This document shows positions 1 through 57,400 of a DNA stretch of 64,000 bases, one piece after another. The position numbers and the translations under genes were made by a program. Numbering within the stretch: the stretch's first letter is position 1; each line of letters opens with the position of its first letter. The DNA comes from Nelumbo lutea (taxonomy: Eukaryota > Streptophyta > Magnoliopsida > Proteales > Nelumbonaceae): positions 55,888,422 through 55,952,421 of the forward strand of contig JAKGHH010000004.1 in NCBI GenBank assembly GCA_022828595.1, read 5' to 3'. Below the pieces are notes generated by a model. That model was given only the letters and a program-made list of their open reading frames with translations. It had not been told where the DNA came from and did no database searches.

Positions 1-242
1 GCTTGGTTGGTAGGTGCATTTTATGCTCCGTCCTACCAATTGAAGCAATGGTAAAATATTTACCCTATTTACTTAAACCTGGATTTAGGACTTGCTCAAA
101 AAGGGGATGGCTTCAGATGAATCCTGTATTCCCTAATCATATTTCTTTACTAAGTTCACAAGAGTTGTCCCAGAACACTATTTCAATTGATTCCAAAAGA
201 GTTGAGTTTTTTTTTTAGAAGAGCAAATGCAGAAAAACACAA
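1..242 (-). repeat. 3' untranslated fragment of an Athila-like element (Z)
   Basis: Left-edge fragment with no convincing coding frame. It carries one copy of the hairpin (positions 7-39) that otherwise occurs only in the 3' untranslated regions of elements A, D1 and E, in the same orientation. I infer that it is the 3' region of another minus-strand Athila-like element, cut off by the LTR of element A at 243. The rest of that element lies outside the window. Confidence 0.45.
7..39 (-). other. Hairpin with conserved core, arms TTGGTAGG/CCTACCAA
   Basis: Perfect 8-bp arms (7-14 and 32-39) around a 17-nt core that starts TGCATTTTATGCTCC. The same core occurs at 2246-2325, 22491-22586 and 48932-49108 with quite different arms. 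The core itself can form GCAT-TTT-ATGC. Confidence 0.8.
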
Positions 243-1803
243 TGACGGGTTGTCGAAGCCCTCAAAATTAATGCTAGTTCCACAATAAATTTGTAGTAGT
301 AGTGGTACTAGGTCGAATCCCACCGAGAGCTAGGTAAATAATTTCTTAGTCGAGTGTGCAATATAAAGAGTGAGAAAATTAAATAATTAAAATTCAAAAA
401 GAATCAAGAAAGCAATATCAACTTAAGAGAAATCAGTCTTACCGAATTCTGATTCAAGAGTTTGGATTTAATCAATTGGTATCAATCCTAGGTAGACTTC
501 GACAATCTTGCAATTCAAGCATTTAACCTTAGATTTATTAGGATAGACATAATAAACCTTGTGTTTTCCTAAATCAGCTAACCAAACCCAGCATTCAATC
601 AACACTTGTCACTAATCAACTGGGTACGATAGCACTCCATATTAACTAGTGATAGCATTAAACTTTGTGAAAACAGTTAAACCAAAATAAAAATAATTGA
701 GATAGCTGCAATTATCGAATCTTGTTCCATTAATTCCCTTTAGGTTAAAACATGTCAATACATTGGTCAAAGGTTGTCACGAACAATTGACCCAAAAAGA
801 TATTAACCTAATTGCTACTTGTACCACTATTTGTGACAATTACGGATCACCGAACCATGGATAACTATAGGAAAATCAATATTAATTAATTTGTCAGACT
901 AATTAGCATTAACATCCATAGAGAATAAGCACAAGAATCAATGAATACTTGAATTAAAAAGAAAGAACTTGAATTAAATACTAAACCTCACGATGACACA
1001 ATCGAACATCCCCCCTTGAACTAGAAAAGAAAAGCTTAACTGCTCATGATTTTCGAATCCTCCATGCTTTGCTTCTCAGAAGGCCGAACTGATCTTTCTT
1101 GATTGATCGAGTTGCTTGATGCTTGATTGATGGATTTTTTTGATTGATTGAGTGTTGGTGAGGATAGTCCGCCCCCCTTTATATAGTAGAGGAAGAGGGC
1201 TGTTTTCCAACTCCTTTTAGGAGATTAACCTCAATTAAGAAAGTCCTGATCTGTTTTGAACTAATCCTATTCTATCTTCTATCAAGTGATCTAATCTCAA
1301 TCATCTTATCTTTCTAGGATTACATTCAAAACATAAATCTAATAAGACTCTCTTTCTGGAGATTACATTTGAAATTGGGACTCTTGGCTTTTGAATTCGA
1401 GTTGGGATGCTTTAATAACTTGGGCTGATACAAGGCTCTTCTGCGAATTGGGCTTCAGTTGCGAAATGGGCTTTGCTGCGAACTTGCTCCAATTTTGGGC
1501 CGATTTCGTCTTTGATGTGGACCGAATCTGTCAAAACCCAAAACATAAATGTTGTGGGTCTATCCCTCATATTTCCATTACATATTGAATTATCCAAATC
1601 AGAGTCCGGAATAGAGAGTTATTCCCTAATTACTGAATGGTGTCGAAACTGTGCAGAATCATCCGATTAGCCTTGTTTTTTTCCAATCACCTTCTTGCTT
1701 GCCTTGAATCGAAATACAAGAGTAATGAGTCCAATTAAGTGCTAAATTAATGAAAAAGAGTGAATATTTGGGGATAAAAATATGGTACTTTTTAGTCTCA
1801 TCA
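243..1803 (-). repeat. 3' LTR of element A (Athila-like, E-type)
   Basis: Read on the minus strand it starts TGATGAGACT at 1803 and ends CAACCCGTCA at 243, about 1.56 kb. It is followed on its right by the polypurine tract of element A, which fixes it as the 3' LTR. It is clearly homologous along its length to the LTR at 46948-48470 (same ends, same order of blocks). A TATA-like CTATATAAAGG lies at about 1176-1186. It differs strongly from the other LTR of the same element (5670-6529). No matching 5-bp target duplication flanks the pair (CACAA on the left, CCTAC on the right). Confidence 0.85.
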
Positions 1804-1845
1804 AATCCCCCCACACTTAAACTTTGTCCATCCTCGGGCATGGCA
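1804..1845 (-). promoter_or_regulatory. LTR-proximal polypurine tract and stem-loop of element A
   Basis: On the minus strand the tract TTAAGTGTGGGGGGATT abuts the LTR start TGATGAG. It would prime plus-strand DNA synthesis. A stem-loop sits directly upstream: TGTCC (1825-1829) pairs with GGGCA (1836-1840), one pair being G-T. This is a decayed version of the perfect stem at 48490-48509 in element E. Confidence 0.75.
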
Positions 1846-2245: not shown

Positions 2246-2325
2246 AGGGTGAGTGCATTTAATGCTCCATCTCACCCTTTCCTTTCGCTTCTAGATGTGA
2301 GTGCATTTTATGCTCCATCTCACAT
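2246..2325 (-). repeat. Two tandem core hairpins in element A
   Basis: First copy: arms AGGGTGAG (2246-2253) and CTCACCCT (2271-2278). Second copy: arms ATGTGAG (2295-2301) and CTCACAT (2319-2325). Both enclose the 17-nt core TGCATTTNATGCTCCAT. Repeat spacing is about 48 bp. The outer arm bases differ between copies but remain paired. Confidence 0.85.
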
Positions 2326-2805: not shown

Positions 2806-2846
2806 AATCCCCCCACACTTAAGGTATACATTGTCCCCAATGTATA
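2806..2846 (-). promoter_or_regulatory. Internal polypurine tract and stem-loop of element A
   Basis: A second tract (2806-2822), the same 17-nt sequence as the one at the LTR, lies about 1 kb upstream of it and just after the integrase gene. Next to it is a perfect 9-bp stem, TATACATTG (2825-2833) and CAATGTATA (2838-2846), with a 4-nt loop. Elements D1, E and F have the counterpart at 23093, 49509 and 54503. Confidence 0.75.
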
Positions 2847-2989: not shown

Positions 2990-4281
2990 GGTTGCCTCCC
3001 ACAAGCACAATTGATTAACGTCGTTATGCTCGACGGCCTCCTTTGCTTCCTTCAATCGATGCCCATTCACCTTGAAAATCTTTCCTATCTTGAGACTTTT
3101 GATCTCTACTGCACCATAAGGAAATACATTAGTAACAACAAATGGGCCCATCCACCTGGAACGCAACTTACTAGCATGAGTTGGAGTCAAGAATTGTATA
3201 ATAAAACCTTTTGTCCAATTATAAATTATTTTCTTAAAAGCAAATTATCATGGAACAATTTGGTTTTCTCTTTGTAGATTCTCAAATTCTCATATGCTTC
3301 TAACCGCAACTCCTCCAATTCTTGCAATTGGAGCTTTCTTGCCTTGCTAGTTTCTTCCATGTCCATATTGTAGCGTTTGATTACCCAATAGGCCTTATGC
3401 TTGATTTCGATTGGCAAGTGACAAGGTTTGCCAAAAATTAACCTACAAGGAGACATCCCTATTGGTGTTTTGTATGCGGTTCGGAATGCCCAAAGTGCGT
3501 CATCTAGACGTAGGCTCCAATCCTTTCTACCTGGGTTCACCGTCTTCTCTAAAATGGACTTAACCTCTCGATTGGAAACCTCAGCTTGTCCATTTGTCTG
3601 GGGGTGATCGGCAATGGTGATTTGGTGATGCACCCCATACTTTTTCAGCAAGACTTCAACAAATCTATTGCAGAAGTAGGTCCCTTGATCATTTATGATG
3701 GCTCGAGGAATACCAAACCTACTAAAAATGTTAGATTTGATAAAACCTACAACACACTTAGAATCATCAGTTCTGGTGGCTTTTGCTTCCACCCATTTTG
3801 AGACATAATCAATTGCCAAAAGTAGGTAAACAAAACCACAAGAGGGAGGAAAGGGTCCCATAAAATCAATACCCCAAACATCAAAGATTTCGCAAATAAG
3901 AATGGGGGTTTGGGGCATCTCGTTTCTGCGAGACAATGCACCTGTTTGTTGGCATCTTTCACACTTTTTACAAAACAAGTATGCATCACTAAATAAGGTT
4001 TCCCAATACAACCCACTATCTAAGACCTTTTGACCAGTTCTTTTTGGCCCAAAATGACCACCACAAGCATAATTATGAAAAAAAATTAAAATCGATATAT
4101 GCTCATTTTTAGGGACACATCTCTTAATCACTTGATCGGAGCAAAATTTCCACAGATAGGGTTCATCCCAAACATAATACTTTTCCTCATATCTGATTTT
4201 ATTCTTCATTGACTTGTTGAGATAATTAGGCAAAATTCCAGTGACCAAGTAATTCACGATATCAGCATACCAAGGGACCAT
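2990..4281 (-). pseudogene. Integrase of element A (Ty3/gypsy, Athila type), frameshifted
   Basis: The integrase inserts the cDNA into the genome. The 351-codon open frame 3226-4281 holds the HHCC zinc-binding region (HNYACGGHF, then CKKCERC), followed by the catalytic core with all three acidic residues in context: [17 protein letters not shown] and [11 protein letters not shown]. The C-terminal DNA-binding part ([21 protein letters not shown]) continues in another frame at about 2990-3190, so a frameshift lies near 3200-3230. The core thus looks intact and the tail is broken. RNase H lies directly upstream and the internal polypurine tract downstream. Similar integrases lie at 43959-45150 (D2) and 49690-51085 (E); the E copy is the nearest relative. 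Confidence 0.9.
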
Positions 4282-4635
4282 ACCTTTTATGTGGAACAGC
4301 TGCTCGTCCGGAAAAAAAACTCAGAGATGGGTGGGGAGTCTTCATCTTTTACCAACCTGCTTAGATGGTCTGCCACCAAGTTTTCAGCTCCCCTTCGATC
4401 CTTGATTTCCAAATCAAACTCTTGGAGAAAAAGTATCCACCTTATCAGCCTCGGTTTTGACTCCTTTTTCACCAGCATGTATTTCAAAGCTGCATGATCA
4501 GAAAATACAATCATTTAGAGCCAAGAAAATATGATTGAAATTTATCTAAAGCAAAAACAATTGCTAATAGCTCCTTTTCGGTGGTCGTGTAGTTGCGTTG
4601 TGCAACATTCAGTGTTCTCGAAGCATAGTAGATGA
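4282..4635 (-). pseudogene. RNase H fragment of element A
   Basis: RNase H removes RNA from the RNA-DNA hybrid during reverse transcription. Visible on the minus strand are [26 protein letters not shown], then after a frameshift near 4515 [14 protein letters not shown] and the end block [17 protein letters not shown]. The fragment starts abruptly at about 4635, where the sequence changes from gag to RNase H. The protease and the whole RT domain that should precede it are missing. Element E keeps the full RT-RNase H order at 51086-52137. Confidence 0.85.
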
Positions 4636-5640: not shown

Positions 5641-5659
5641 CTCCCCGGCAACGGCGCCA
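5641..5659 (-). promoter_or_regulatory. Primer-binding site, tRNA-Asp type (element A)
   Basis: The minus strand reads TGGCGCCGTTGCCGGGGAG, complementary to the 3' end of plant tRNA-Asp. tRNA-Asp priming is typical of Athila-type elements. It lies 10 nt inside the 5' LTR end at 5670. Confidence 0.9.
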
Positions 5660-5669
5660 AAATTTGGCA

Positions 5670-13224: not shown

Positions 13225-13242
13225 TCCCCGGCAACGATGCCA
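13225..13242 (-). promoter_or_regulatory. Primer-binding site of B1 (tRNA-Asp-like)
   Basis: Minus strand TGGCATCGTTGCCGGGGA, two mismatches from the site in element A. It is 6 nt from the LTR end (TGTCCGGACACACCA-type terminus at 13249). Copies lie at 38461-38478 and 58430-58447. Confidence 0.8.
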
Positions 13243-13248
13243 AAATCT

Positions 13249-16161
13249 TGGTGTGTCCGGAAGCGTGTCGTTAACTACTTTGGAACACCAGGTTTAATAT
13301 TTATAATTTTATTTTGATTCTCAAACAACTAATTGAAGGGATGAGAGATCCATCATATGGATGGCCGAACCCTGCGGGTAGATTGGGCGAAATTTCAAAA
13401 ATTTCTCTTTTTCCCATCTGGGAATAGCATTCCCTGTTTTAGAAAATCTACATTTTCAAGGATCAATCTTGAACCCTAAACCAAACCAGATCTGAAACCA
13501 AAAGGTAGGAGAAGGATATACCTGATACAGAGTAGTAGTAACTCCCAATGAAGGTGTTCACGCCCAAAGAAATCTCCGAAGACTGTTCCAACTGAAGATG
13601 ACACAGTGTAGGGTGGAGCAGAATCAATAGTGTTCTTCCCAAGAAGCGAATCCTTCAACAAGAATTCGATGGAGGTTGTGAGCACGACTTCCGATCAGCC
13701 TTTCTCCAAAGGCTGATATCAAGACCCTTCTTGACCACGCCTACAATGGAGATCGAACTGGCAATGGTGGCGGCAGGAGGAGGGCACAAGAGCAGAAGAT
13801 GGTGCAGTTACACTGTTGTTGTATACTCTCTTCTGTGATCTAAGATCTGATGATTTATGTGTTGTTGATGTCCACCCTTCTCCTCCTTTTATAGATTTAA
13901 AAAGTGCTCCAAATCTCATTAGGAGTTTCCTGATCCAAATCCTTATTTGGATCTGGACTCTCTTTAAGATATAAGGAAAACCCTTATCTTATCTATAGAG
14001 TAGATAAGCTTTCCTAATCTCATTAGGAGGTTTTCATATCCAAATCTCTATTTGGATCTAGACTCTCTGAGTGGATAGGGATAACTCCCTATCCTATATG
14101 CTAATCCAAATCCCAGATCCGCCCTTCTTTAACTAATCGAATTAGACCAGTTTGAAATGGGCTTTAGGCCCAATAAGTCTATGTGCTCAGTAACCTTCCA
14201 AACTGCTGCCTAGTTGGGTTTCTTTCTATGGCATGGGACGCAAACATTGATCTACACATCAGCCACATGGGTTTAGCCACATGTGCTCAGTAACCTTCCA
14301 AAATGAACCCTTGAACCCATCACCATAGGCTCTTAATGGGCCCAACACTTACACTAAGTGGTCTCTGGGTCAAGCCACCTTATAAAAACCCAGGGACTGT
14401 GGGCAGATGCAAGATTACCCCATCAGGTATTACCCTCAATGGTCTTACACTTAACCTCCCAGCCCATAATGATCAAACACTGCCCGACAAGGGAGGACCT
14501 CTCCCTCGGTTGCAAGGAACAGTGCTGCACTCTCAACTCACATGGATCTCGAGAATGAAAACCTTTGCAAATATTTTGAAACTTTGCAAAACAAATTTCA
14601 ACGATTGAAATTGGCTACCGGTAGTCTTGGTTTCCATCAGAAAGAGTGCATCCCCAATCATTACCTTTGTCCGACAAAGGGGCTGATTTTGTCACTATGA
14701 TCACTCACTCAGATGAATTCTCAGACTGTCCCAACATACACAGGTTTTGACCCCCTTTAAGGATCTCACTGATTGGCATATCAAAGACAACCCAATCCGA
14801 CACCTAGTGCAGTATCATAATCAAATCTAGGGGTCAATGTAACTTTTCAGTTTTGCCCATCAATCTCAAAGGTCCAAGGCAATACTGGAAATCTGGTTCT
14901 GTTCAGGGTTTCAAGTAAACCTACACTACATGTACCTCGGGTCTCACCCTAGCAGCTGAGATAGGCTACCCCAACCAACTTGGCATCACATCAGTGTCAG
15001 CCTTCGCAGGATAAATCTCCCTATACTTATCCAACAGCTATGAACATTGTAAACTAACATGAGTCTCATATGTGTCCAGTTTAATGGTATTACACAGAAA
15101 CACACCACAATAACATGAATCAAATATGTACTTTATTGATTTACAATAAATGTCACAATGTACATCATTTTGATTGGAGCTAAAGGCATACACTATCTAA
15201 CACTAATAACGTAGTAAATAGGTGAGTATGGGTCGTATCCACAGGGATGCAAGTGAAAATTTAATATATACTTAGATCTGGATAAGAGAATGCAATTGGG
15301 AATGGCAAAAAATATGAAAATAAAATCTATTATTGCTAAAATTAAATGTTTTGAATTTAAACAAGACAATATATAAAAATAAGAATTTAATAAAGTATGG
15401 GAATCAATAAAGGAAATAAAATAAATAAATAAAAAAAAATTGATCTAGAATCCGGATTCGGTGGCGGTAGCTACAGATCGAGCAGACAGCTTGTAGAAAC
15501 CCCTCTTGACAAGAACCAGGCGTCTGTCCTTTCTAGAACCCTCGAACCCCTTGAGACACCTTAGCCTTGAACCGAACGAATTCAGATCTAAAAAACAGAG
15601 AAACAAACAAGAATTAAATCTTAATGATTGTAGAAATAAAAATATCAGAAAAGAAAATAAAGAAAAGAAAAGAATGGTTGATCAGATCCAGTGACAGTAG
15701 TTGTAGATGGTTGAACAGCTTGCAGGAAGCCCTCCTAACAAGATCTAGGCGTCCTCCCCTTCTACAACCATTGAACTCCTCAAGAAACCTTAGCCTTGTT
15801 AACTGGGTAAATTGACCAACCCCTTCTACAGGGCCCCTAGGACCCTTTTTATAGAGAAGGGTGGACACAACTATAAATAGGGTGAAAGATGGGGGGCGAC
15901 AACTAGGTTTAGCAGATAGGAAGCGCCCTCCTGTTCTCAGTTCTTTACAAAATCACCCCCTCTCTCAACTGGTCTTCACACCAGCTCCCCAAAAACTGCA
16001 CTTCAGCCTAGAAAACTTCCTAATTTTCTATATAATTTGCACAGAGACCCTCAAAGGTCACATAATTGATTTTAACTAGGAAAAGGGTACACTTTGACTA
16101 TTCTTAGGCCAAAAATACCCCTGAATTGGTGCCCTTAAGGCATCAAAATGTAGGGTTATCA
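13249..16161 (-). repeat. 5' LTR of B1, split by a copia LTR
   Basis: LTR sequence occupies 13249-13333 and 15203-16161; the part between is a nested copia solo LTR. Compared with the 3' LTR of B1 it lacks about 490 bp around 15895, probably through a deletion between short similar words (CAACTAGG). It ends at TGATAACCCTA (16161) against H1 RT sequence. Confidence 0.85.
13334..15202 (-). mobile_element. Copia solo LTR nested in the B1 LTR
   Basis: Minus strand TGTTAGATAG (15202) to CATCCCTTCA (13334), 1,869 bp, flanked by the 5-bp duplication CTAAT (13329-13333 and 15203-15207). No internal region is present, so it is a solo LTR left by LTR-LTR recombination. It matches the 3' LTR of C1 (32756-34693) along its length. 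On the minus strand a TATA-like CTATAAAAGG lies near 13885. An identical nested insertion sits at 38570-40495. Confidence 0.92.
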
Positions 16162-22102: not shown

Positions 22103-22142
22103 AACTCCCCCACACTTAAGCTTTGCTTGTCCTCAAGGAAAG
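22103..22142 (-). promoter_or_regulatory. LTR-proximal polypurine tract and stem-loop of D1
   Basis: Tract TTAAGTGTGGGGGAGTT (22103-22119) abuts the LTR. Beside it CTTTGCTTG (22121-22129), loop TCCT, and CAAGGAAAG (22134-22142) form a 9-bp stem with a single G-G mismatch. The loop is the same as in element E, the arms differ. Confidence 0.8.
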
Positions 22143-22490: not shown

Positions 22491-22586
22491 GTGTGAGTGC
22501 ATTTTATGCTCCATCTCACACTAGGCACTTTCTTTTTTCTCTTTTTTTTTTGTGTGTGTGAGTGCATTTTATGCTCCATCTCACAC
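22491..22586 (-). repeat. Two core hairpins in D1
   Basis: Arms GTGTGAG and CTCACAC at 22491-22497/22515-22521 and again at 22556-22562/22580-22586, both around TGCATTTTATGCTCCAT. They are separated by a T-rich spacer, spacing about 65 bp. Confidence 0.85.
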
Positions 22587-23092: not shown

Positions 23093-23131
23093 AACTCCCC
23101 CCACTTAACATGAACATTGCCCTCAATGTTC
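23093..23131 (-). promoter_or_regulatory. Internal polypurine tract and stem-loop of D1
   Basis: Tract TTAAGTGGGGGGAGTT (23093-23108) next to a perfect 8-bp stem GAACATTG (23112-23119) and CAATGTTC (23124-23131), loop CCCT. It lies about 330 bp past the integrase gene. Confidence 0.75.
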
Positions 23132-31080: not shown

Positions 31081-32700
31081 TTAAGAAGACTCTTCGAGAA
31101 AGGTCCCTAGACACCCATCGTCAGGAAATTGTTCTTGATGAGGAGAGCTCAGGAGCAGTGGGAGATGTCCCACAAGTTCCAGGTAGTGACTAACCTAGAA
31201 GATCTACTCGGGTATCCAGACCACCAGTCCGTTATGGTTATGACCAGGATAGTTACCTGGTGGAAACCTTGACTAGTGAGGAGGATCCCGTGACTTACGC
31301 GGAAGCTATATTGGACATAGATTCCCAGAAGTGGGTGGAGGCCATGAGAGCAGAGATGGATTCAATGGAGACCAATGGAGTCTGGACTCTAGTAGATCCG
31401 CCCTCTGGGTAAAAGTAATTGGTTGCAAATGGATTTACAAGAGGAAGAAGGGCCTCGATGGTAGGATTGAGACCTTCAAAGCTCGTTTGGTGGCGAAAGG
31501 GAACATTCAGAAAGAGGACATCAATTATGAGGAAACATTTTCGCCTGTGGCCATGCTTAAATTCATTAGGATCCTGCTACTTGTAACAGCATATGAATGT
31601 CAAAACTGCATTCCTGAATGGATATCTTACTGAACATATCTATATGCAACAGCCACAAGGCTTCATAGCTGCGGGTCAGGAAAACATGGTATGTAAACAT
31701 AATAGATCCATTTATGGATTTAAGAAAGCTTCTAGAAGTTGGAACATCCGTTTTGACTCTGCCGTGAAATTGTTTGACTTCTAGCAGAATCCAGATGAAC
31801 CCTGTGTTTAAAGGAAGTACAGTGGAGATAAGGTTACCTTCTTGGTTCTGTATGTAGATGACATTCTACTCATTGGAAATGATGTAGGAATGTTGACTAC
31901 GGTAAAAGTATGGCTTTCACAGCAATTCTCCATGAAAGATCTTGGAGAGGCCTCCTATATATTGGGTCTTCGACTCTATAGAGATAGATCGAAGCGGATA
32001 ATAGGATTATCCCAATCTGCCTACATTGACAAAATAGTCAAAAGATACAGCATGGAAAACTCCAAGAAAGGAAATGTTCCTTTCAGGCACGGAGTCACTC
32101 TCTCCAAGAAGATGTCTCCCAAGACTTCTGAGGAGATTGATGGCATGAAGGACGTTCCCTATGCCTCTGCCATAGGGAGCATCATGTATGCCATGCTGTG
32201 CACTCGCCCTAACATTGCTCAGGCAATGAGTGTAGTAAGCAGATTTCACGCCAACCCAGGGCAGGAGCACTAGACTGCTGTGAAAAACATACTTAAGTAC
32301 CTTTGAAAGACAAAAGAGTTTTGTCTAGTATTCGATGGTAATTCGCTACAGATCCAAGGGTATACAGATGCCGATTTCCAGTCGGATCCAGATGATAGAA
32401 AGTCTACATCTAGATATATTATCATGATAGGGTCGTGTGTTGTTTCCTGAGTGTCAGCGAACAGGGGTCCTAAGTTGCAAACTAATAGTCCACAACCCAA
32501 GCCGAGCGCATTGCCGTAAGTGAGGCTGCCTTATGAATGAAGGTGTTCATTCCTGAATTTAGAATTCAACACATCACCCATTCCATTGTTGTATGACAAC
32601 ACTGGACCTACGAGAGGATGATAGTAAGAGGTAGCATCAGCGGAGAATGTGGTAGACCCATTGACTAAGCCACTGACACAGAAAGTGTTTATGAAACACG
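31081..32700 (+). pseudogene. RT and RNase H of copia element C1
   Basis: Ty1/copia polyprotein C-terminal half. In order: the integrase-RT linker (RSTRVSRPPVRYGYDQD), RT blocks KWIYKRKKGLDGRIETFKAR and EETFSPVAM, IYMQQPQGF, the catalytic box VLYVDDILLIGND (about 31842), MKDLGEASYILGLRLYRD, the block YASAIGSIMYAMLCTRPNIA, then RNase H GYTDADFQSDPDDRKSTS. Block style is that of the Angela/Tork group, in line with the LTR length of about 1.9 kb. At least one frameshift (near 31590) and several stops break it. Gag, protease and integrase should lie upstream but are replaced by unrelated DNA. Confidence 0.92.
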
Positions 32701-37223: not shown

Positions 37224-38460
37224 TTGGTGTTTAAATTCAAATTCAGATTTTGAGATTTAAATTCCTAAAATTTAAATTTGATTTATTTTTAACTTAACTT
37301 TTTTTTTGTTTTTTTCTTTTCATTTTTTTATTCGAAAACTTAAATTTAAATTTTCAAAATTTGAGATTCAAATTCAAATTCAGATTCGAATTAAAATTCA
37401 AGTTCAAATTCAGATTTGAAATTTAACTCAAATTTAAAAATTTCAGCAATTTCCTATTTATTTATTAATTATTCAATTAAACAACTAAAAGAAAATAAAT
37501 TAAATAAAGCAACAAATAATAATTGCAAACAGAAAAAAAAAAACAACAATTAATTGTGGAAAATAGAATTAACAACAACCAAAAATAAATTCTAACTAAG
37601 TAACCTAATCTAAAAATTAAAGTGAAAATAAATTGATCAAAAAGTAAATTATGCAAGAAATAGATAAAAGAAAAGAAAAAAAATACAAATATAAAAAAAA
37701 AAATAAACCACAAATAAAATAAAGAAAAGAAAAAATAGGCTGAAAAATTTTTTATTAATATTTTTTTTGCTTTTTTAAATAAAAGAAAACACAAATCTAA
37801 AAATTAATACATAAATAAAATTAACAAAAGAAAAATATGCAGAAAAAAATAAATAACATAATTATTTTATTGTTTTTTATCTGAAATAAAAGAAAAAAAT
37901 TAATCTAAAATTTAAACCAAAAATAAAATAAAATAAATTAAACAAAAGAAAATTATGCTACAAGAAATAAAATAAAATAGAATAAACGATTTTTTTTAGT
38001 TTCATTAATCTAAAATAAAAAAAAAAAACACAAACCTAATAAAGAAAAAAAAAATTGAACAAGAAAGAAGAATATATCTAGAATATATTAAAATAAAGAA
38101 AGAAGAATAGATCTAGAAACAATATGGGTGCAAAATAATACTAAAAAAAATCAGATCTTGAAAAAAATTAATTAAAATTTCAAAAATAAATATTCTATAA
38201 AAAAAGAGTTTGAAAATAAAAAAAAAAGAAAATTAAAACTAAAATGGAACGACTACACCTGAAACACAATCCAATTTCTCTTCTCTTCTCTTCTGTCCCG
38301 CAGTCCCGCAATGCTCCAATACCCCACCTTTCGCTATTCCGTCCGACAGAATCAAAGAGAAATAAGAACTATACTAAGATAATGGATTAAGTAATAAAAT
38401 GAAAAAGAAAAGATGATGAAACAGATCTAGAAAAAGTTAATAAAAAATTTTCTCCGTGCT
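37224..38460 (-). other. A/T-rich leader of element B2
   Basis: Copy of the B1 leader (11993-13224), slightly shorter, with the same ATTCAAATTC words and A-rich runs. Predicted frames inside reflect base composition only. Confidence 0.8.
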
Positions 38461-38478
38461 TCCCCGACAACGATGCCG
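38461..38478 (-). promoter_or_regulatory. Primer-binding site of B2
   Basis: Minus strand CGGCATCGTTGTCGGGGA, a decayed tRNA-Asp-type site, 6 nt from the LTR end at 38485. Confidence 0.75.
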
Positions 38479-38484
38479 AAATCT

Positions 38485-41400
38485 TGGTGTGTTCGGAAGC
38501 ATGTTGTTAACCACTTTGGAACACTAGTTTTAATATTTATAATTTTATTTTGATTCTCAAACAACTAATTGAAGGGATGAGAGATCCATCATATGGATGG
38601 CCAAACCCTGCAGGTTGATTGGGCGACATTTTAAAAATTTCTCTCTCTTCCATCTGGGAATCACATTCCCTGTTTTAGAAAATCTGCATTTTCAAGGATC
38701 AATCTTGAACCCTAAACCAAACCTGATCTGAAACCAAAAGGTAGGAGAGGGATATACCTGATACAGAGTAATAGTAACTCCCAATGAAGGTGTTCACACC
38801 CAAAGAAATCTCCAAAGACTGTTCCCACCGAAGATGACACAGTGTAGGGTGGAGCAGAATCAGTAGTGTTCTTCCCAAGAACCGAATCCTTTAGCAAGAA
38901 TTCGATGGAGGCTGTGAGCATGACTTCAGATCAGCCTTTCTTCAAAGGATGATATCAAGACCCTTCTTGATCGCTCCTACAATGGAGATTGAACTAGCAG
39001 TGGCAGCAGCAAGAGGAGGGTGCAAGAGCAAAAGATGGCGCAGTCACACTGTTGTTGTCTTCTCTCTTTCTGTGATCTAAGATCTGATGATTTGATGTGT
39101 TGTTGATGTTCGCCCTCCTCCTCCTTTTATAGATTTAAAGAGAGCTCATAATCTCATTAGGAGTTTCCTTATCCAAATCCTTATTTGGATCTGAACTCTC
39201 TTCAAGAGATAAGAAAAACCCTTATCTTATCTATAGATTAGATCAACTCTTCTAATCTCATTAGGAGGTTTCCAGATCAAAATCTCTATTTGGATCTAGA
39301 CTCTCTGAGTGGATAGAGATAACTCCCTATCCTATCTACTAATCCAAATCCCAGATTTTCCCTTCTTTAACTAATCAAATTAGACCAGTTCGAAATGGGC
39401 TTTAGGTCCAATAAGTCTATGTGCTCAGTAACCTTCCAAACTACTGCCCAGTTGGGCTTCTTTGTTTGGCGTGGGATGCAAACATTGATCTACACATAAG
39501 CCACATGGGTTTAGCATAGCCTCTGTTACAAGGCCTGGCCAAATTCACTGTTTTGGGCAGTGAGCGCTTGAGCCCATCACCATGGGTTCTTAATGGGCCC
39601 AACACTTACACTAAGTGGTCCCTGGGCCAAGCCACCTTATAAAAGCCCAGGGACTATGGGCAGATGCAAGATTACCCCATCAGGTATTACCCTCAATGGT
39701 CTTACACTTAACATCTCAGCCCATAATGATCAAACACTGTCCGACAAGAGAGGACCTCTCCCTTGGTTGCAAGGAATAGTGTTGCACTCTTTAATCACAT
39801 GGATCACAGGAATTAAAACATTTTGCAAACATTTTGAAACCATAATATATATGTATATCTCTATAAAAACATATTTTGCAAAACAAATTTCAACGGTTGA
39901 AATCGGTTGGCAGTAGTCTTGGTTTCCATCAGAGAGAGTGCATTCCCGATCATTACCTTTGTCCAACAAAGAGGCTGATTCTGTCACTATAATCACCCAC
40001 TCAGATGAATTCTCAGACTATCCCAACATACCTAGGTTTTGACCCCTTCTAAGGATCTCACTGATTGGCATATCAAAGATAACCCAATCCGACACCTAGT
40101 GCAGTATCATAATCGAGTCTACGGGTTAGGTGTAACTTTCCAGTTTTTCCCATTAATCTCCAAGGTCCAGGGCAATACTGGAAATCTGGTCCAGTTTAGG
40201 GTTTCAAGTAAACCTACATTGCGTGTACCTCGGGTTTCACCCTAGCAGTTGAGATAGGCTATCCCAACCAACTCGGCGGTATATCAGTGTCAGCCTTGGC
40301 AGGATAAATCTCCCCAGACTTATCCAATGGCTATGAACATTCTAAACTAACATGAGTCTCATATGTCTCTAATTTAAGGGTATTACATAGAAACACACCA
40401 CAATAACATGAACCAAATATGTACTTTATTCATTTACAATAAATGCCATAATGTACATCATTCTGATTGGATCTAAGGGCATACACTATCTAACACTAAT
40501 AATGTAGTAAATGGGTGAGTACGGGTCGTATCCACTGGGAAGCAAGTGAAAAATTAATATATACTTAGATCTGGACAAGAGAATGCAATTGGGAATGGCA
40601 GAAAATATGAAAATAAAATCTATTATTGCTAAAATTAAATGTTTTGAATTTAAACAAGACAATATATAGAAATCAGAACTTAATAAAGTATTGAAGTCAA
40701 CAAAGAAAATAAAAGAAATAAATAAAAAAAATGATCCAAAATCTGGATCCAGTAGCGGATGCAGATCGGCCAGACAGCTTGCAGAAACCCCTCATGACAA
40801 GAATTGGGCATCTGTCCTTTCTAGAGCCCTCGAACCCCTCAAGACACCTTAGCCTTGAAATGAACGAATTCAGATCTGCAAAATAGATAAACAAACAAGA
40901 ATTAAATCTAAAAGATTGCAGAAATAAAAATAATAGAAAAGAAAATAAAGAAAGGAAAAGAATGGTTTCAGATCCAGTGGTAGTAGTTGCAGAATGGTTG
41001 AACAGCTTGCAGGATACCCTCTAGACAAGATCTAGGTGTCCTCCCCTTCTACAACCCTTGAACTCCTCAAGAAACCTTAGCCTTGTTAATTGGGTAAATT
41101 GACCAACCCCTTCTACAGGGCCCCTGGGACCCTTTTTCTAGAGAATGGTGGAAACAACTGTAAATAGGGAGAAAGATGGGGGGCAGTAGCTGGGATTTAG
41201 CAAAGTTAGGGATGCCCTAGTTTTTCTAATGGATGGCTAAGATGCTTTTGGAGTGATCCTATGGCTGAAAATAGAAGTAGAGGGCACCTAATATTATGTA
41301 AGGCTGAGATTTGGGCACCCAGAAATGGAGGGTGTAGATTAGAACATCTAGGATTGAAATGTTGAGATTAAAAGAATAGGTAGTGCCCTATATTGAATGG

Positions 41401-46947: not shown

Positions 46948-48470
46948 TGATGGGTTGTCGAAGCCCTCAAAATTAATTCTAGTCCCACCTTACTATAAAC
47001 TTGTAGTAACAGTGGTACCAGGTTGAATCCCACAGGGAGCCAATAATTAATTTCTCAGTCGAATGCATAATATAAAGAGTGGGATATTTGAATAATTAAA
47101 AATTCTAAAATAACAAAAGAGCAATTAACAACTAACAAGGAAAATTCAGTCTTACCGAATTCTAATCCAAGGGGTCAGATTGAGTTAATTGGTCATCGAT
47201 CATAGGTAAACTTCAGCAGTCTTGCAATTCAAGTATTTAACCTTATAATTTATTAGGATAGCCATAATAAACCTCATGTTTTCCTGAATTAGTTGACCAA
47301 ACCCAGCATTCGATCAACACTTGTCATTAACCGATTGGGTACGATAGCGTTCCATATCAATTGATGAGCAATAACCTTTGTAAAAATAGTTAAACCAAAA
47401 TAACAATAATTGAGATAGCTGTAATTATCGAATCTTGTTCCATTGATTCCCCTTAGGTTAAAACATACCCATACATTGGTCAATGGCTGTCATAAACAAT
47501 TGACCCATGTAGGATAATAACCTAATTGCTACTTGTACCACTATTCGTGACAATTATAGATCATCGAACCATGGATAGCAGTAGGAAGATAAACATTAAT
47601 TAATTTGCCAGACTAATTAACATTATCATCTATAAGAACATGCATAAGAATCAACAAATACTTGAATAAGAAAGCAAGAATTTAAATTAAACGCAAAACC
47701 TCACAATGACACAATTGAATCAAAAATCCCCCTTGAATCGGAAAAGAAAAGCTTAGCCGCTCATGATTGTCGACTTCCCTCTTGCTCTGCTTCCCAGATG
47801 GATGAACTGATCTTCTGAATTGATTGAGTGCTTGAGTGATGGATTCATTGATGCCTAAAGCTGGTCACCCCCCCCCCCACTTTATATAGCTTTAGGAGGA
47901 GCGGCTCTCTCCAACTCCTCTTAGGAGATTATCCTCAAAAATAGAAACTCCTAAATCAGTTTTGATCTAATCCTATCCTATCTCTTATCTAGTAATCTCA
48001 ATCTTCCTTATCTTTCTAGGATTACAATTGAAATTTAAATCTTATAAGACTCTTTATTCTTGAATTCGAAGTGGGCTTCTTTAATAGATTGGGTTGCTAT
48101 AAGTCTTTTCTACGAATTGGGCTTCAGCTATGAATTGGGCTTTACTGCGAATCTCTTCCACTTCGGGCCCGATTTTAACCTCGATTCAGACCAAATATGT
48201 CAAAACCCATAATATGAGAGTTGTGTATTCTCCCTTGTCTTTCCAGTTCATCTTGAATCATCCCAATTGGAGTCCGGGTTTGAGAGTTATGCCTAGATTA
48301 CTGAATGATGCCGAAATTGTGGAAAATCATCCAATTAGCCTTGTTTTCCTCCTGTAGCCTTCTTGCTTGCCCCGAATCGAAATACAAGAGTAATGAGTCC
48401 AATTAAGTGCTAATTTAATGTAAAAGAATGAATATTTTGGGATAAAATATGATACTTTTTATTCCTATCA
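46948..48470 (-). repeat. 3' LTR of element E
   Basis: Minus strand TGATAGGAAT (48470) to CAACCCATCA (46948), 1,523 bp, same family as 243-1803. TATA-like CTATATAAAGTGG near 47878. Confidence 0.9.
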
Positions 48471-48509
48471 AATCCCCCCACACTTAAACCTTGCCCGTCC
48501 TCGGGCAAG
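48471..48509 (-). promoter_or_regulatory. LTR-proximal polypurine tract and stem-loop of E
   Basis: Tract TTAAGTGTGGGGGGATT (48471-48487) next to a perfect 8-bp G/C-rich stem CTTGCCCG (48490-48497) and CGGGCAAG (48502-48509), loop TCCT (AGGA on the element strand). It is the clearest case of this module. Confidence 0.85.
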
Positions 48510-49508
48510 ACAAAACTCAAGCAAAAACAGTCTAACTACCTATTGATTTTTAAAACTCTCTCTTTCTCTCTCAACATGATGCTTGGCCTCTTGCATGCTT
48601 CAATCCAGACTTAATAATCTTTTCATTTTCCACTTCTTTCTCCTCTTTAACTTGTTAAAGAGTAATCTCAACTCACCATTCCTCATGAACCCAAATTAAT
48701 TCAACAGACAAGGAAAACAAACATTCCACCAGCTAAACATTTTTGGACTAAAATAAGCACTCATTGTTTTAACAATTAAATGCAGCACATTCAAATATCT
48801 CTCTTTGTTTTTGAGGTATCATTAGTCTCTCAGGTCAAAACAAGGTATGTTATTACCATAAACTTGCTTATGAATCACATCTCCTCCACTTAGCATGAGT
48901 TCAATGCATCAAAAATTGAAATGGAGTGCTAGGGGTGAGTGCATTTTATGCTCCATCTCACCCTTTTCTTCCGCTTATAAATGTGAGTACATTTTATACT
49001 CCATCTCACATTTTTCTTTCGCTTCTAAATGTGAGTGCATTTTATGCTCCATCTCACATTTATCTTTTGCTTCTAAATGTGAGTGCATTTTATGCTCCAT
49101 CTCACATTTGTCATGAGTTTTTTTTAGCGCAATAGTAGACATCACCATTTCCATTCCGATCCATGAACTCATTGACGTGGTCTCAACATGACTACAAAGC
49201 AAGTTCTTGAATAATCAAACTGTGTTTGACAGGCTTTTGACAGGCCTTTAGGCAAAAAAAAATGCTCATAAGGGTTACATTTGTATTGAATCTAGCTTAT
49301 TCCAAAATAATGAGGTACCTTACGTAGTCAAAAAGTTTAGTTAGTCATGCTTGCATCCTGTCTTGTCTATCAAACCTAAGCACATAATTCATGATAGTTT
49401 GAAACTATTCAAAGATAAGTTTCTAAGGGACATAAACCTCAAAAAGCAAGGTTAAAAAGTAATGATTGAAGCATGCTAGAGTTACCCCAAAAATTATCAA
49501 ATTCCCCT
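48510..49508 (-). other. 3' untranslated region of element E
   Basis: About 1 kb, no coding frame supported. Contains the four-copy hairpin array and matches element A 1846-2805 outside it. Confidence 0.7.
48932..49108 (-). repeat. Four tandem core hairpins in element E
   Basis: Copies at 48932-48965 (arms GGGTGAG/CTCACCC), 48981-49013, 49028-49060 and 49076-49108 (arms AATGTGAG/CTCACATT). Unit about 48 bp with spacer TTTCTTTCGCTTCTA-like. In the second copy the core reads TACATTTTATACTCC, two G-to-A changes. Short frames on both strands across the array are due to the repeat. Confidence 0.9.
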
Positions 49509-49549
49509 AATCCCCCCACACTTAAGGTATACATTGTCCCCAATGTATA
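49509..49549 (-). promoter_or_regulatory. Internal polypurine tract and stem-loop of E
   Basis: Tract TTAAGTGTGGGGGGATT (49509-49525), identical to the LTR-proximal tract, and a perfect 9-bp stem TATACATTG (49528-49536) and CAATGTATA (49541-49549). Confidence 0.8.
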
Positions 49550-49689: not shown

Positions 49690-51085
49690 ACACAATGGGT
49701 TGCCTCCCACAAGTGCAATTGTTTAACGTCGTTATGCTCGACGTCCTTCCTTGCTTCCTTAATTCGATGAATAATGAGGAATATCCAACGAGATCTCTAC
49801 CAAGGAGGAGACATTTGCATCCTCATGGAACAACTTTAATCTATGCCCATTCACTCGGAAAACCTTATTTGTATCAAGACTTTTGATCTCCACTATACCA
49901 TAAGGAAACACATTAGTAACAACAAACGGACCCATCCACCTAGAACGCAACTTACCTGGCATGAGTTGAAGTCAAGAATTATATAATAACACCTTTTGAC
50001 CAACCATAATCCATTTCCTTAAAAGCAAATTATCATGGAACAACTTGGTCTTATCTTTGTAGATTCTCGAATTCTCATACGCTTCTAACCGCAACTCCTC
50101 CTATTCTTGTAATTGGAGCTTTCTTGCCTTGCTAGCTTCTTCTATGTCCATATTGCAATGTTTGATTGCCCAATATGCTTTAAATTTCAACTGGTAAATG
50201 ACAAGATTTTCCAAAAAGTAACCTATAAGGTGACATCCCTATTGGTGTTTTATATGCGGTTCGGTATACCAAAAGTGCGTCATCTAGACATAGACTCCAA
50301 TCCTTCTTGCCCGGGCTCACCGTCTTTTCTAGAATGGACTTGACTTCTCGATTGGAAACCTCAACTTGTCCATTTGTCTGGGGGTGATAGGCAATAGCGA
50401 CTCAGTGATGCACCCCATACTTTTTCAGTAAGGCTTTAATGGCTTTATTGCAGAAGTGGGTCCCTTGATCACTTATGATGACTCGAGGAATACCAAACCT
50501 ACTAAAAATGTTAGGTTTGATAAAACCTACAACACACTTAGAATCATCAGTTTTGGTGGCTTTTGCTTACACCCATTTTGAAACATAATCAACTGCCAGA
50601 AGTATGTAAACAAAACCACAAGAGGAAGGGAAGGGTCCCATAAAATCAATACCCCAAACATCAAAAATTTCACAAATAAGAATGGGGGTTTGGGGCATCT
50701 CATTTCTATGAGACAATGCACCTACTCGTTGGCATCTTTCACTATTTTTACAGAACAAGTATGCATCTTTAAATAAAGTTGCCCAATACAACCCACTATC
50801 TAAGACCTTCCTAGTAGTTCTTTTTGGCCCAAAATGACCACCACAAGCATAATTATGACAAAAATTCAAAATCGACATATGTTCACTTTCAGGGACACAT
50901 CTCCTAATCACTTGATCAGAGCAAAATTTCCACAAATAAGGGTCATCCCAAACATAATATTTTGCCTCATACCTGATTTTATCCTTCATCGACTTGCTAA
51001 GATAACTAGGCAAAATTCCAATAACCAAGTAATTCACGATATCAGCATACCAAGGGACCATACCTTTTACTTGGAACAGTTGCTC
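49690..51085 (-). pseudogene. Integrase of element E, several stops and shifts
   Basis: Blocks in order from 51070: [19 protein letters not shown], zinc region [14 protein letters not shown] with CKNSERC (first cysteine pair damaged), [15 protein letters not shown], then after a stop [28 protein letters not shown] and the C-terminal [18 protein letters not shown] (49759-49962). At least four stops or frameshifts. Very close to the integrase of A. Confidence 0.9.
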
Positions 51086-52137
51086 ATCAGGAAAAAGCAT
51101 AGAGAAGGGTGAGGAGTCTTCATCTTTTACCAACCTGCTTAGATGGTCCACCATCGAATTTTCAGCTCCCCTTCGATCCTTGATTTCTAAATCAAACTCT
51201 TGGAGAAAAAGTATCCACCTTATCAGCCTCAACTTTGACTCCTTTTTCGCCAATAAGTATTTCAAAGCTGCGTGATCAAAAAACACAATCACTTTAGAGC
51301 CAAGCAAATATAATCGAAATTTATCTAAAGCAAAAACAATTTCTAATAGCTCCTTTTCGGGGGTTGTGTAGTTGCATTGTGCAGCATTCAGCGTCCTCGA
51401 AGCATAGTAAATGACATAATCTTCCCATCAATCCGTTGACCTAGAACAACTCCTACCACATAGTTGCTTGCATCGCTCATGATTTCAAAGGGCAAGTTCT
51501 AGTCTGGTGGTTGAATAATGGGTGCAATCGTCAGCAAATTCTTGAGCTTATCAAATGCTTCCTTGCAATCATCCCCAAAGTCGAAAGGCACATCTTTTTG
51601 AAGCAATTTGGACAATGGCAGGGCAATTTTTGAAAAGTCCTTAACAAACCTACGATAAAAACCTGCATGTCCAAGAAAAACACGCACTTCCCTAACATTT
51701 GTAGGGTAAGATAAGCTCACAATTAAATCAACCTTTGCCTTATTGATCTCTATGCCTCTTGCAGAGATAACATGTCCCAGCACAATGCCTTCCTTTACCA
51801 TAAAGTGGCACTTTTCATAATTCAAAACCAAATTAGTTTCAACACATCTATCCAGAATTTTACTCAAATTATCTAAACAATCATCAAACGAATCACCATA
51901 GACAGTAAAATCATCCATGAACACTACAATGCACTTCTCAATAAAGTCAAAAAATATACTAATCATGCACCTTTAAAAAGTACCTGGAGCGTTGCACAAA
52001 CCAAAAGGCATCCATCTGTAGGCAAAAGTGTCAAATGGGCAAGTAAAAGTCGTTTTCTCTTGGTCCTCTTGAGCAATAACGATTTGATAATAACCTAAAA
52101 ATCCATCGAGAAAACAAAAGAGTGCCTTGCCGATAGA
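51086..52137 (-). pseudogene. RT and RNase H of element E
   Basis: From 52137: FCFLDGFLGYYQIVIAQEDQ, TFTCPFDTFAYRWMPFGLC, one stop, then the 155-codon stretch 51499-51966 with the catalytic box VFMDDFTVYG, LVLNYEKCHFMVKEGIVLGH and FLGHAGFYRRFVKDFSKIAL. RNase H follows ([50 protein letters not shown]). A few stops. RT is cut at 52137 upstream of FLDG. Confidence 0.9.
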
Positions 52138-54502: not shown

Positions 54503-54545
54503 CTTACACTGGGGACAATGTAAGTTTTAAGTTTGGGGGAGGAGA
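54503..54545 (+). promoter_or_regulatory. Internal polypurine tract and stem-loop of F
   Basis: CTTACACTG (54503-54511), loop GGGA, CAATGTAAG (54516-54524), a 9-bp stem with one mismatch, then TTTTAAGTTTGGGGGAGGAG (54526-54545). Confidence 0.7.
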
Positions 54546-55952
54546 TTTAGGTTGTGTTTTAAGTTTGATTTAGGAAGTGTTTTAAATTTGATTTAGGTTG
54601 TGTTTTAATTCTGCATTTTTTTGAAAAAAAATATAGTTTTGGTCTTTGTTTTGTGGTTTTTTTTTTGTGATTTTCAACGATTTTTTTTAGGTTGTGTATG
54701 CCATAAGCAAGATTCAATTAAGCTTGAAAAGATCATAACATGATTGGATAAATAATCTTCCAACTTAGAATTAATTAATCTAGTTATTTTCCTTGAGAAT
54801 GGTAGTGACTAAATTTAGTAGACAAAAGCTGGTGAGATTTTGAGCCTTTGGACTGACACATTCACATCAGTCCCACTATTTTCTTTCATGTGAGATATTC
54901 TTCCATAGATTTGTTTCTCTATAACTTTCCTTGATTCTCTTCAAGATCACATTTACACATGCATGCATGAATAAGATTAAGGCCCTTTTTGTTATAAGCT
55001 ACATAAGCCAAATAACCTACCCTTTGATAAATTATCCCCTTTGTTGAATCCCTTTGAGCTTTATTGACCTTTGTCGTTCATTGCAACCCCATGTTACAAG
55101 CTTTAAACCTGAAAAAAACAATGCCCTTACCCAAACCGTAGACTTAGTGGAGCATTACTCATCATTATGATATGCATGGATATGCAAGTTTCAAGGTGGG
55201 GGTGTTTGGATTCATGGTATGGTTATGAATGGTGAATCGGAACATGTTTTCATTCTCAATTCGTGAGTTCCATTGATTGATATTCTTTGAAAGGAAGGAA
55301 TGGAGGAAATTGCTTTTGATGTCACAAACTATCCATGTCCTTCTTAAATTCCAAGAAAAAGGGGCTATTTATACTTATAAAGGTGGAAGTTGTTGTGAAG
55401 AATTGTTCCCTACTGCAAACAAAAAGTGTTCATTTGAATGATCTCTTTTACAATGCAGGAGTTTTACATGCTTTAAATACATTAAAAAAAATTGAAGAAG
55501 TTGCTGAATGAAGTGATTGGTTTTACATGTCTAATGCATTCGAGCTTCAGATGATTCAGTTTTGCTCTACCAGTTTCGATGGCTTTTCAGCTACATTCCC
55601 AAATATTTCCCACCTTAATCCTAAGCCCCATTACAACCCTTGAAAAGTCCTTTTGATTTGTGTTATGCATGTGATCCCAGTGGTGGAGAATGAAGATATG
55701 CAAGCCTATGGTAGATCATTTCCATTGGAATGAACTTGAGCAAAACACATACCCTTCAAACATGAGAGTTGAGTGTTTATTTCTGTGAGGGTCTATTATT
55801 TAGTTTATTCTATATTCGAGTGAAAATGCTTACTAAAGTAATTGAAAGTTGTTAAGAATGTTTGTTCATGATGTGTCTTGAGTATTGAAGAGCTTGGTTG
55901 TTCTCTGTTGATGGCATTGTAACCGTAGTGTTTTTGAGAAAGTGAATTTGAG
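54546..55952 (+). other. 3' untranslated region of F
   Basis: About 1.4 kb with no supported frame. Unlike A, D1 and E it has no TGCATTTTATGCTCC hairpin that I can find. Confidence 0.65.
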
Positions 55953-55992
55953 TTTTGCCTGAAGACGAGCAAAAGCTAAGTGTGGGGGGATT
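55953..55992 (+). promoter_or_regulatory. LTR-proximal polypurine tract and stem-loop of F
   Basis: TTTTGC (55953-55958) and GCAAAA (55969-55974) form a 6-bp stem, followed by TAAGTGTGGGGGGATT (55977-55992) directly before the LTR start TGATGAG. Confidence 0.75.
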
Positions 55993-57400
55993 TGATGAGA
56001 ATGCAAAATATCATATTTTTCTCCTTTAATATTTATTCTTTTATACTTATTTAGTGCCTAAATGGACTCATTATTCTTATATTTAGGTTTAGGGCACGAA
56101 ATGAGGCGTTAAGTGAAAAACAAGGCTAATCGGGTAATTCTGGACAGTTTTGGCATTGCGTGGTAATTTGGCCATAACTCTCTCATATGGACTTTGATTG
56201 AGATGATTCAAGATGAATTAAAAAGATAAGGAAATTTCTACAACTTTACTGTTTTGAGTTTTGATAGATACAAAATGTATCGATGTCAAAATTGGGCCCG
56301 AATTATCTACAACTACACTACTGACGTGCTGGAAACATTCCTTCGCCTGCAACTTTTCATATGCGAAATCACCATTCTCGCACTTGCATTAGAACTTTGT
56401 TTTATCCCATTTTCGAATTTTTTTCTTAACAAGTCAGACTTGGAGACTGTTATCTAGAGAAATTTTAAGAGATTTTTTAGGCTTCTTTTGGGGGAAGTAG
56501 AGAGAAAGAAAGAAGAGAAAGAAAATCAAGAAAGCAATCAGACTTAGGTTGTCGCACCTCTCTTCTCTGATTTTTCTTGAGTTTTCACCATAACCATGCA
56601 TGGCCAATTCTGATACTTGGTCGAGGGAAACAAAAGCCTTAGAATCAACAAAACTGTGAGATTTAATTTTACTTTTATTGTTTGATTTATACTTTGAATA
56701 TCGAATGTTCTTCTATGTTTATGTTCATGATTGTTTCGTCTGATTTCTAGGAGGCCTACTAGTTTATTATTCGTAGCAATCTACTGCTAGGTTAGATATC
56801 ATATCCGTAACTGTTTGATCCCTCTAATCTGTGAAGCAACTAGGATTAAATGATTTGCTGCGTCAGAAATTGTTAGATCTTAGGAAGAACACTCGACTGA
56901 ATTAAACGCAACCGCTTGTGCTTGTGTTGTTTAGCTTCACAGATCTCTAATGCTTAAGGCTACTGCTGGATTAAATCTTTAACGCTTGTTTAGGGGTTGT
57001 TCAGTAGTAAGGGTTAAGAGGATCGCTTGTTTTCTGATTAACTAGATTAGGGAGATGCAGGAAAATAATTTTTACGATGAATATTTAAAGTCTGAATTGA
57101 TTTATCTTTGCATCGATGAGCAGTAGTGAAATTATGATGGTGGATGTTGACTTAGACCAAGACTCATTCTTTTGATTAATTTCAGTACCTTGAATTGCAT
57201 TGTTTCTCATTTAATTTCCGTTCTTTTTATTTCTGATTTTCTTTCATTTTAATTCTGGTTCATTGCATAAACCCCCCCTCCATCTTTGTTCACGTAGCAC
57301 ACAAACTAGGTTAGACACTCTCTGTGGGAACGATCCTTACTCGCAATATTGCATTTATTTTTAGGAGTATAGGTTTTATTTTTGGGTGCCTACAATAGCA
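55993..57400 (+). repeat. 3' LTR of element F
   Basis: TGATGAGAATG to TACAATAGCA, 1,408 bp. Same family as the 5' LTR of A (5670-6529). The 5' LTR of F is missing. Confidence 0.88.

Follow-up and report, generated by a model that had tools for sequence, protein, structure and literature searches.

The window, as we call the whole 64,000-nucleotide stretch of DNA analysed here, is plant DNA by content: it holds nested LTR retrotransposons, and the named relatives of its proteins are plant proteins. Several of these elements carry arrays of short hairpins in their 3′ untranslated region (UTR), in the order, on the element strand, integrase, upstream polypurine tract (PPT) module, hairpin array, downstream PPT module and 3′ LTR. 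In element E, which lies on the minus strand, the integrase region (50014..51100, two tblastn pieces, 82% identical to element A) is followed by the upstream PPT module (49509..49547; inverted repeat TACATTG-GGGA-CAATGTA, then TTAAGTGTGGGGGGATT), the array (48933..49107) and the downstream module (48471..48509; inverted repeat CTTGCCCG-AGGA-CGGGCAAG, then the PPT), which abuts the 3′ LTR (46948..48470). Element A, on the same strand, has the corresponding integrase (rve and Integrase_H2C2; 3229..4320), upstream module (2806..2844), array (2247..2325), downstream module (1804..1843, with an imperfect inverted repeat) and 3′ LTR (243..1803), and a primer-binding site, TGGCGCCGTTGCCGGGGA, lies at 5642..5659, again on the minus strand. 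A third array (22491..22586, minus strand) is flanked by an upstream module at 23094..23130 (coordinates read from the sequence) and a downstream PPT at 22103..22119. Three families were compared by blastn over 0.8–1.1 kb of UTR: family I (A, E and locus L157), family II (the 22-kb array) and family III (L158, L162 and L169); a 3′ UTR of a further family, IV, occupies 54505..55992 on the plus strand and contains both PPT modules but not the hairpin core, as judged with the covariance model R1 and by UTR comparison. The LTR beside the primer site of element A (5642–6529) is 83% identical to the family IV LTR (55993–57400) and 74% to the 3′ LTR of A itself (243–1803), so that element A looks chimeric or nested. 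Elsewhere the window contains an interspersed repeat pair (11993–15914 and 37224–41202, 87.7% alike over 4 kb) and a Ty1/copia reverse transcriptase (RT) at 31812–32270.

The core of the hairpin, TGCATTTTATGCTCCRT, is found in nine copies, all in the + orientation, at 15, 2254, 2302, 22498, 22563, 48940, 48988, 49036 and 49084 (at most three mismatches). Seven of the nine are exact, with one change at 2254 and two at 48988, and the expectation from 100 shuffles is 0.40 copies (largest 2), which rules out a chance palindrome. The first-pass annotation had described nine hairpin copies in four places, with paired arms and a copy number that differs between related elements, and this description is accurate. 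Element E carries four 31-nt units with a period of 48 (48933–48963, 48981–49011, 49029–49059 and 49077–49107), element A carries two (2247–2277 and 2295–2325) and so does family II (22491–22521 and 22556–22586), whereas the unit at 8..38 (minus strand) closes a family III array of four, the other three units of which lie to the left of the window (L193). The arms of the window units pair as they had been given. Overall, arrays consist of one to five units, with a spacing of mostly 42–49 bp, or 51–65 bp in family II. The covariance model R1, which was built from units including six of the nine window copies, recovers the same nine units in the window and no other up to E = 5.

No named feature was known to have this core, and the searches agree: the hairpins have no Rfam match at the gathering score, and the core letters were not found in literature text searches. 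The sole Rfam match at that score in the whole window is snoR71 at 4780–4886, away from the hairpins. This match (46 bits, with a cut-off of 40) runs antisense to the gag of element A and is probably retrotransposon sequence picked up by the model of that family.

The position of the arrays relative to the PPT modules was examined for 23 arrays, namely, the three lying wholly within the window and one each in loci L151–L170. Counting on the hairpin strand only, both modules are present within 1 kb of the array in 15 of the 23, one module in seven and none in one (L154), so that 22 arrays lie between or beside the two polypurine modules, much as the initial reading had it. When both strands were scanned, all listed PPT matches within 1 kb of an array shared the hairpin strand. 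An inverted repeat similar to those of element E precedes the tract in most other loci, in some imperfectly, but none was found at L159 (upstream module), L163 (upstream module) and L170. Within these inverted repeats (window positions 48490–48509 and 49530–49547, and most modules of L151–L170), the loop is AGGA or GGGA and the arms vary from module to module and from family to family, yet largely pair; the form ACATTG-AGGA-CAATGT recurs at ~8946 in L171, a locus outside this genome.

The host elements look like Athila-type Ty3/gypsy retrotransposons, a label taken from the form of the PPT and from the primer-binding site TGGCGCCGTTGCCGGGGA, which we take to be Athila-type. The site is exact at window position 5642, where it was also first read, and recurs within two mismatches at window positions 13225 and 58430 as well as in L152, L157, L166, L167 and L169. 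Besides the rve and Integrase_H2C2 of element A, neither a chromodomain nor a second (archaeal-type) RNase H, the latter a mark of Tat elements (PMC6317226, in the portion available), was found in the ten window open reading frames scanned, all of which are fragments. In an integrase tree of 26 rows, which contains no lineage-labelled references and in which two rows are less than half filled, elements with hairpins intermingle with those of other plants, and the starred branches require no fewer than three label changes. Among the other-plant elements in the tree, L171 was checked and is without the core. The Athila-like elements L171 and L172 come from assemblies that bear the names Solirubrobacter sp. 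and Geminicoccus harenae and probably represent plant contaminants in bacterial genomes; their contigs carry a plant-type element with an integrase 60% identical to that of A and PPT modules but no hairpin core, and end ~0.9 kb and ~0.1 kb, respectively, past the PPT module. The hairpin is thus not obligatory in the lineage: it is absent from family IV and from L171 and L172, and soybean Diaspora has no room for an array because its pol stop lies only 128 bp before the PPT, according to the part of PMC1142308 available.

The hairpin is abundant in the genome. Across the 843.66 Mb surveyed (63 contigs), the 15-mer TGCATTTTATGCTCC has 5,885 matches with at most one mismatch (3,096 and 2,789 on the two strands), compared to 12 (5 and 7) for its reversed control. 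We also considered, and rejected, a viral feature. The 15-mer occurs in at least 120 stretches of viral contigs, once each in the 80 listed, a frequency that we estimate, without formal calculation, to be close to chance; no viral match remains once two arm letters per side are included, and none of the four pattern stretches checked in viral contigs is related to the integrase of element A. Detailed comparison relied on a sample of 122 units from 41 arrays, drawn from the window and 37 loci in the first 6.5 Mb of contig C1. Left out before counting were an overlapping direct core duplication in L158 (two rows), a chance match on the other strand in L167, a unit of L170 that adjoins N and the duplicates L190–L192; a unit of L183 with an inserted base was further left out of alignment A1 and of the substitution count. 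R1 finds further weak units that the pattern missed, in L162 (33.4 bits) and L170 (29.5 bits). In L158 (7048–7080), the core is duplicated back to back within one hairpin, pushing the paired arms apart. On C1, nine hairpin pairs follow each other ~2.36 kb apart (5847710–5866636). Besides two PPTs and two hairpins, the one monomer read (L194, 5847400–5849800) includes the pre-PPT region and the initial ~735 bp of an LTR; this nine-monomer tandem is a satellite-like array grown out of a retrotransposon 3′ end.

The 17-nt core is well supported as a constrained sequence. Across 121 units compared to the majority letters of their unit type, 2.7% of core sites are substituted, or 2.1% when the T/C site is excluded, compared to 5.8% of arm sites on each side and to 17.0% and 15.9% at the seven outer sites. 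The earlier description of a nearly invariant core therefore stands, and in the sample the core is better kept than the letters around it, although discovery of the units via the core biases this measure in favour of the core. As a control, the first 28 sources were searched with the flanks of 92 units, the core being masked, allowing up to eight mismatches in 28. This search yielded 40 further matches, of which one is a real unit (L174, with one inserted core base), whereas the others, inspected by eye, represent known units (their opposite strand or a shifted copy) or are due to chance; young elements with free variation in the core were not found among the loci of this search. Fewer changes fall in the 3′ half of the core: 13 at positions 10–17 (eight of them at position 12), versus 24 at positions 1–8 without position 2.

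Pairing of the outer stem as a covarying stem-loop is likewise well supported. Across 77 distinct 31-nt units, pairing of the 7-bp outer stem reaches 91.7%. The first-pass annotation had proposed that both arms change together and named change on one side only as evidence to the contrary; in the sample both sides change, with 135 double-change cells over the whole structure versus a shuffle mean of 47.9 (sd 6.8; none of 500 shuffles as high) and 3–24 such cells in slid controls. The covariation score (0.397 versus 0.163 in shuffles) and the fraction of paired cells over the whole structure (93.2% versus 81.0%) were not reached in any of the 500 shuffles either, whereas two of the five covariation measures are without excess in these units (pairs changed on both sides, 4 versus 4.7; further pair types, 19 versus 18.6). 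The outermost pair varies between units (GC 20, UA 16, AU 14, CG 7, GU 7, UG 5, other 8), and RNAalifold, unaided, recovers the outer stem only, with six of its seven pairs. When right arms were swapped whole between the 83 distinct units of a previous set (1,000 shuffles, eight pairs per unit), mean pairing was 66.9% and the maximum 71.5%, compared to 85.7% observed. The arms fall into two main types, GTGAG/CTCAC (64 of the 121 units) and GTAGG/CCTAC (19), with other letters in at least one arm in the remaining 38, and mixed arms combining the GTGAG and CCTAC types are absent from all 121 sampled units. The GTAGG/CCTAC type has 1,371 genome-wide matches with up to two mismatches, and its control none. 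In family III (L153, L158, L160, L179 and L186), the arms seem position-specific, approximating TTGGTAGG, ATAGTAGG, CAGTAGG and AAGTGAG in order, so that unit identity in this family may be older than the single copies.

The inner part of the hairpin behaves differently from the outer stem. Two competing folds of the core, as initially suggested, are thermodynamically possible, but neither inner helix contains a double change: the GCAU/AUGC helix is paired in 95.8% of cases with zero double changes, and 14 of the 77 units lack the U9–A24 pair of the alternative fold. Hence, only the outer stem has covariation support. Its length also bears on whether the hairpin might be a source of small RNAs, one of the roles initially listed. 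Athila-derived small RNAs are known in Arabidopsis, and a dicer or miRNA precursor has a long, near-continuous stem of ~20 bp or more. With a supported stem of only 7 bp, too short for such a precursor, this role is unlikely, whereas an RNA protein-binding site or packaging signal, the other roles proposed at that stage, stays the best reading.

If the hairpin acts as RNA, the active form is likely to be the sense strand. The exact sequence GTGAG-core-CTCAC occurs 2,197 times in the genome; allowing C-to-T at the three right-arm C, which would give G-U pairs in sense RNA, adds 215 matches, whereas allowing G-to-A at the three left-arm G, which would give A-C, adds 101. Without pair 5, the figures are 98 versus 61. 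The respective p values of 1.3e-10 and 0.004 assume independent copies, whereas the copies are related, and part of the G-U excess is inherited CTCAT. Among the sampled units, the ratio of G-U to A-C (29:18, p = 0.14; 19:15 when every change is counted once) is not significant. The predicted probability of the cognate stem, taken over the 122 units, is higher in sense (0.525) than in antisense (0.356; Wilcoxon p = 4e-6, the units being related), a gap that comes partly from the same G-U pairs, and when whole arrays are folded, the cognate stem exceeds 0.5 in 66 of the 122 units in sense and in 45 in antisense.

The hairpin is shared between families that otherwise have little UTR sequence in common. 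The UTRs of families I, II and III resemble each other almost exclusively in the hairpin units and the two PPT modules, the exceptions being up to ~80 nt flanking the downstream module on its upstream side (I and III) and one 21-nt match (II and III). Integrase identity to element A is 71–82% within family I, 61–69% for family III pieces, 59.0% for family II's own piece (23.7–24.1 kb) and 55.7% for a family II relative in the window (44.2–45.2 kb). The LTR starts of five of six family III elements resemble those of family I (68–76% over ~280–660 bp; in L162, over only 28–29 bp), and L169 and L166 share 85% LTR identity over 1.5 kb although their hairpin units mostly belong to different arm types, so that 3′ ends seem to be exchanged between families. 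The family II LTRs have no match to those of families I or III at E 1e-5.

The array is also kept in elements without a recognizable pol. L152, L157 and L167 are 86–91% alike. Each has a primer-binding site, gag, the upstream PPT and the array, whereas the RT and integrase queries from the window gave no match in them at E 1e-4; a downstream PPT could be located in L157 and L167 but not in L152. L167 has both LTRs, 96.7% identical, with a 5-bp target site duplication, ATGGG, read by eye at its ends. Similarly, the family III loci L153 and L160 combine gag, the upstream PPT and the array, again with no match to RT or integrase. Of the 23 element-sense records, 10 show a readable CCHC motif; L153, L157, L160 and L167 are among them, whereas L152 is not. 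That the array is kept by RNAs dependent on mobilization in trans fits a cis-acting recognition element. PMC2410132 describes, in Arabidopsis, pol-less Athila families that have spread with enzymes supplied by others, as well as recombination among distantly related Athilas; the available part of that report gives no answer as to how the pol-less RNAs are recognized.

Taken together, these features lead us to propose, with about an even chance of being right, that the array is a protein-binding cis element of the genomic RNA, with packaging or trans-mobilization as the outcome. The array would act within the 3′ UTR of Athila-type Ty3/gypsy genomic RNA, presumably in sense form. Each unit would consist of a 7-bp stem, the letters of which are fairly free provided that pairing holds, presenting the near-invariant 17-nt loop AYGGAGCAUAAAAUGCA to be read by sequence, and one to five adjacent units would provide higher avidity for an RNA-binding protein. 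The reader may be a CCHC zinc-knuckle Gag or a shared host factor, which would choose the RNA for packaging, including pol-less RNAs in trans. Retroviral packaging stem-loops have GGAG-type loops that are read by the nucleocapsid and are located at the 5′ end. The hairpins described here resemble them in having GGAG in the loop and in that a CCHC Gag motif is present in many hairpin-bearing elements, but differ in being tandem, in lying in the 3′ UTR and in having a 17-nt loop.

Among functional outcomes, packaging or trans-mobilization appears most likely, followed by nuclear export. In the latter case, the loop would bind a host export or mRNP protein, akin to the constitutive transport elements (CTEs) that serve as the export route of simple retroviruses (PMC11379458, in part). 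The location in the 3′ UTR and the presence of several copies fit such a role, as does the sharing of the core by families with integrases as divergent as those between plants, which would suit a host reader; however, family IV, also Athila-type and in the same genome, manages without an array, and we consider an export or RNA-stability element possible but rather doubtful. Like CTEs, the hairpins would be structured RNA that acts in cis within an element's genome; the sequence and layout appear to differ. The close association with the PPT modules, both of them in 15 arrays, could instead point to reverse transcription, with the array assisting plus-strand priming or strand transfer, for example, by pausing RT or shielding the upstream PPT, all the more so as Athila4 and Calypso have an extra PPT of unclear role (PMC2829016, in the part available). 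Yet such a function would not need a 17-nt loop specific in sequence, and family IV has both modules without hairpins, making this explanation unlikely.

Two further explanations do without a functional RNA. A conserved core inside inverted repeats would suit a DNA-binding dimer or a cruciform, so that the array could provide a 17-bp protein-binding site in integrated or linear DNA; but arms that vary and nevertheless pair are unneeded for recognition of a duplex, and G-U pairs outnumber A-C in the sense reading, albeit not significantly in the sampled units. Accordingly, a DNA-level site seems quite unlikely. Alternatively, the array might be a functionless tandem repeat that arose by slippage and in which template switching across the palindrome preserved the complementarity of the arms. 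The 3′ UTRs of Tat/Ogre elements commonly contain hypervariable tandem repeats (PMC7004042, in part), and the arrays described here also vary, from one to five units. Template switching, however, mends arms without keeping a loop constant, and the core is the best-kept part and still shared where most of the UTR is unalignable; we regard neutral origin as very improbable.

Returning to the protein-binding element, a loop shared despite unalignable spacers, including by family II, whose LTRs show no detectable likeness to those of families I and III, leads us to a more tentative and, on balance, improbable extension, whereby the hairpin would serve as a shared RNA passport. One Gag or host factor would accept the RNAs of other families, pol-less ones included, and the tag may have spread by 3′-end recombination, as the L169 and L166 LTRs would suggest, or may be an ancient Athila feature yet to be found in other plants, in keeping with the mixed placement of hairpin-bearing families in the integrase tree.

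Some components of this arrangement are known already. The hypervariable 3′ UTR of Tat/Ogre/Retand elements is known to harbour tandem repeats (Macas 2009, as cited in PMC7004042), depicted in the excerpts available as short units arranged head to tail between pol and the 3′ LTR, variable in number and able to seed satellites (PMC7004042, PMC11963269); the nine-monomer 2.36-kb tandem with hairpin UTR on C1 is comparable. However, those repeats are described as family-specific (PMC11963269, in part), whereas the 17-nt core is common to several families with little else alignable in this region; moreover, the units form covarying stem-loops, and their host elements look Athila-type rather than Tat. 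The second PPT of Athila4 and Calypso is also known, as are the multiple PPTs with an inverted repeat of Sireviruses (PMC2829016, in part), which the two PPT modules before the 3′ LTR, each with an inverted repeat in most loci, resemble; the hairpin array between the modules is distinct from them, and the available portion of PMC2829016 mentions none. A covarying stem-loop with a loop common to several families goes unmentioned for those systems in the excerpts consulted and looks undescribed. Nor do such hairpins appear in titles or abstract beginnings among the literature matches listed by topic.

To our knowledge, no trans-mobilization signal of plant LTR retrotransposons has been described, and none is present among the literature matches listed. 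The combination of a constant loop with covarying stems provides a 31-nt probe for the protein that chooses plant retrotransposon RNA, and the hairpin offers a marker for tracing the exchange of 3′ ends between families. If the shared-recognition proposal is true, the hairpin would be a trans-mobilization signal of plant LTR retrotransposons.
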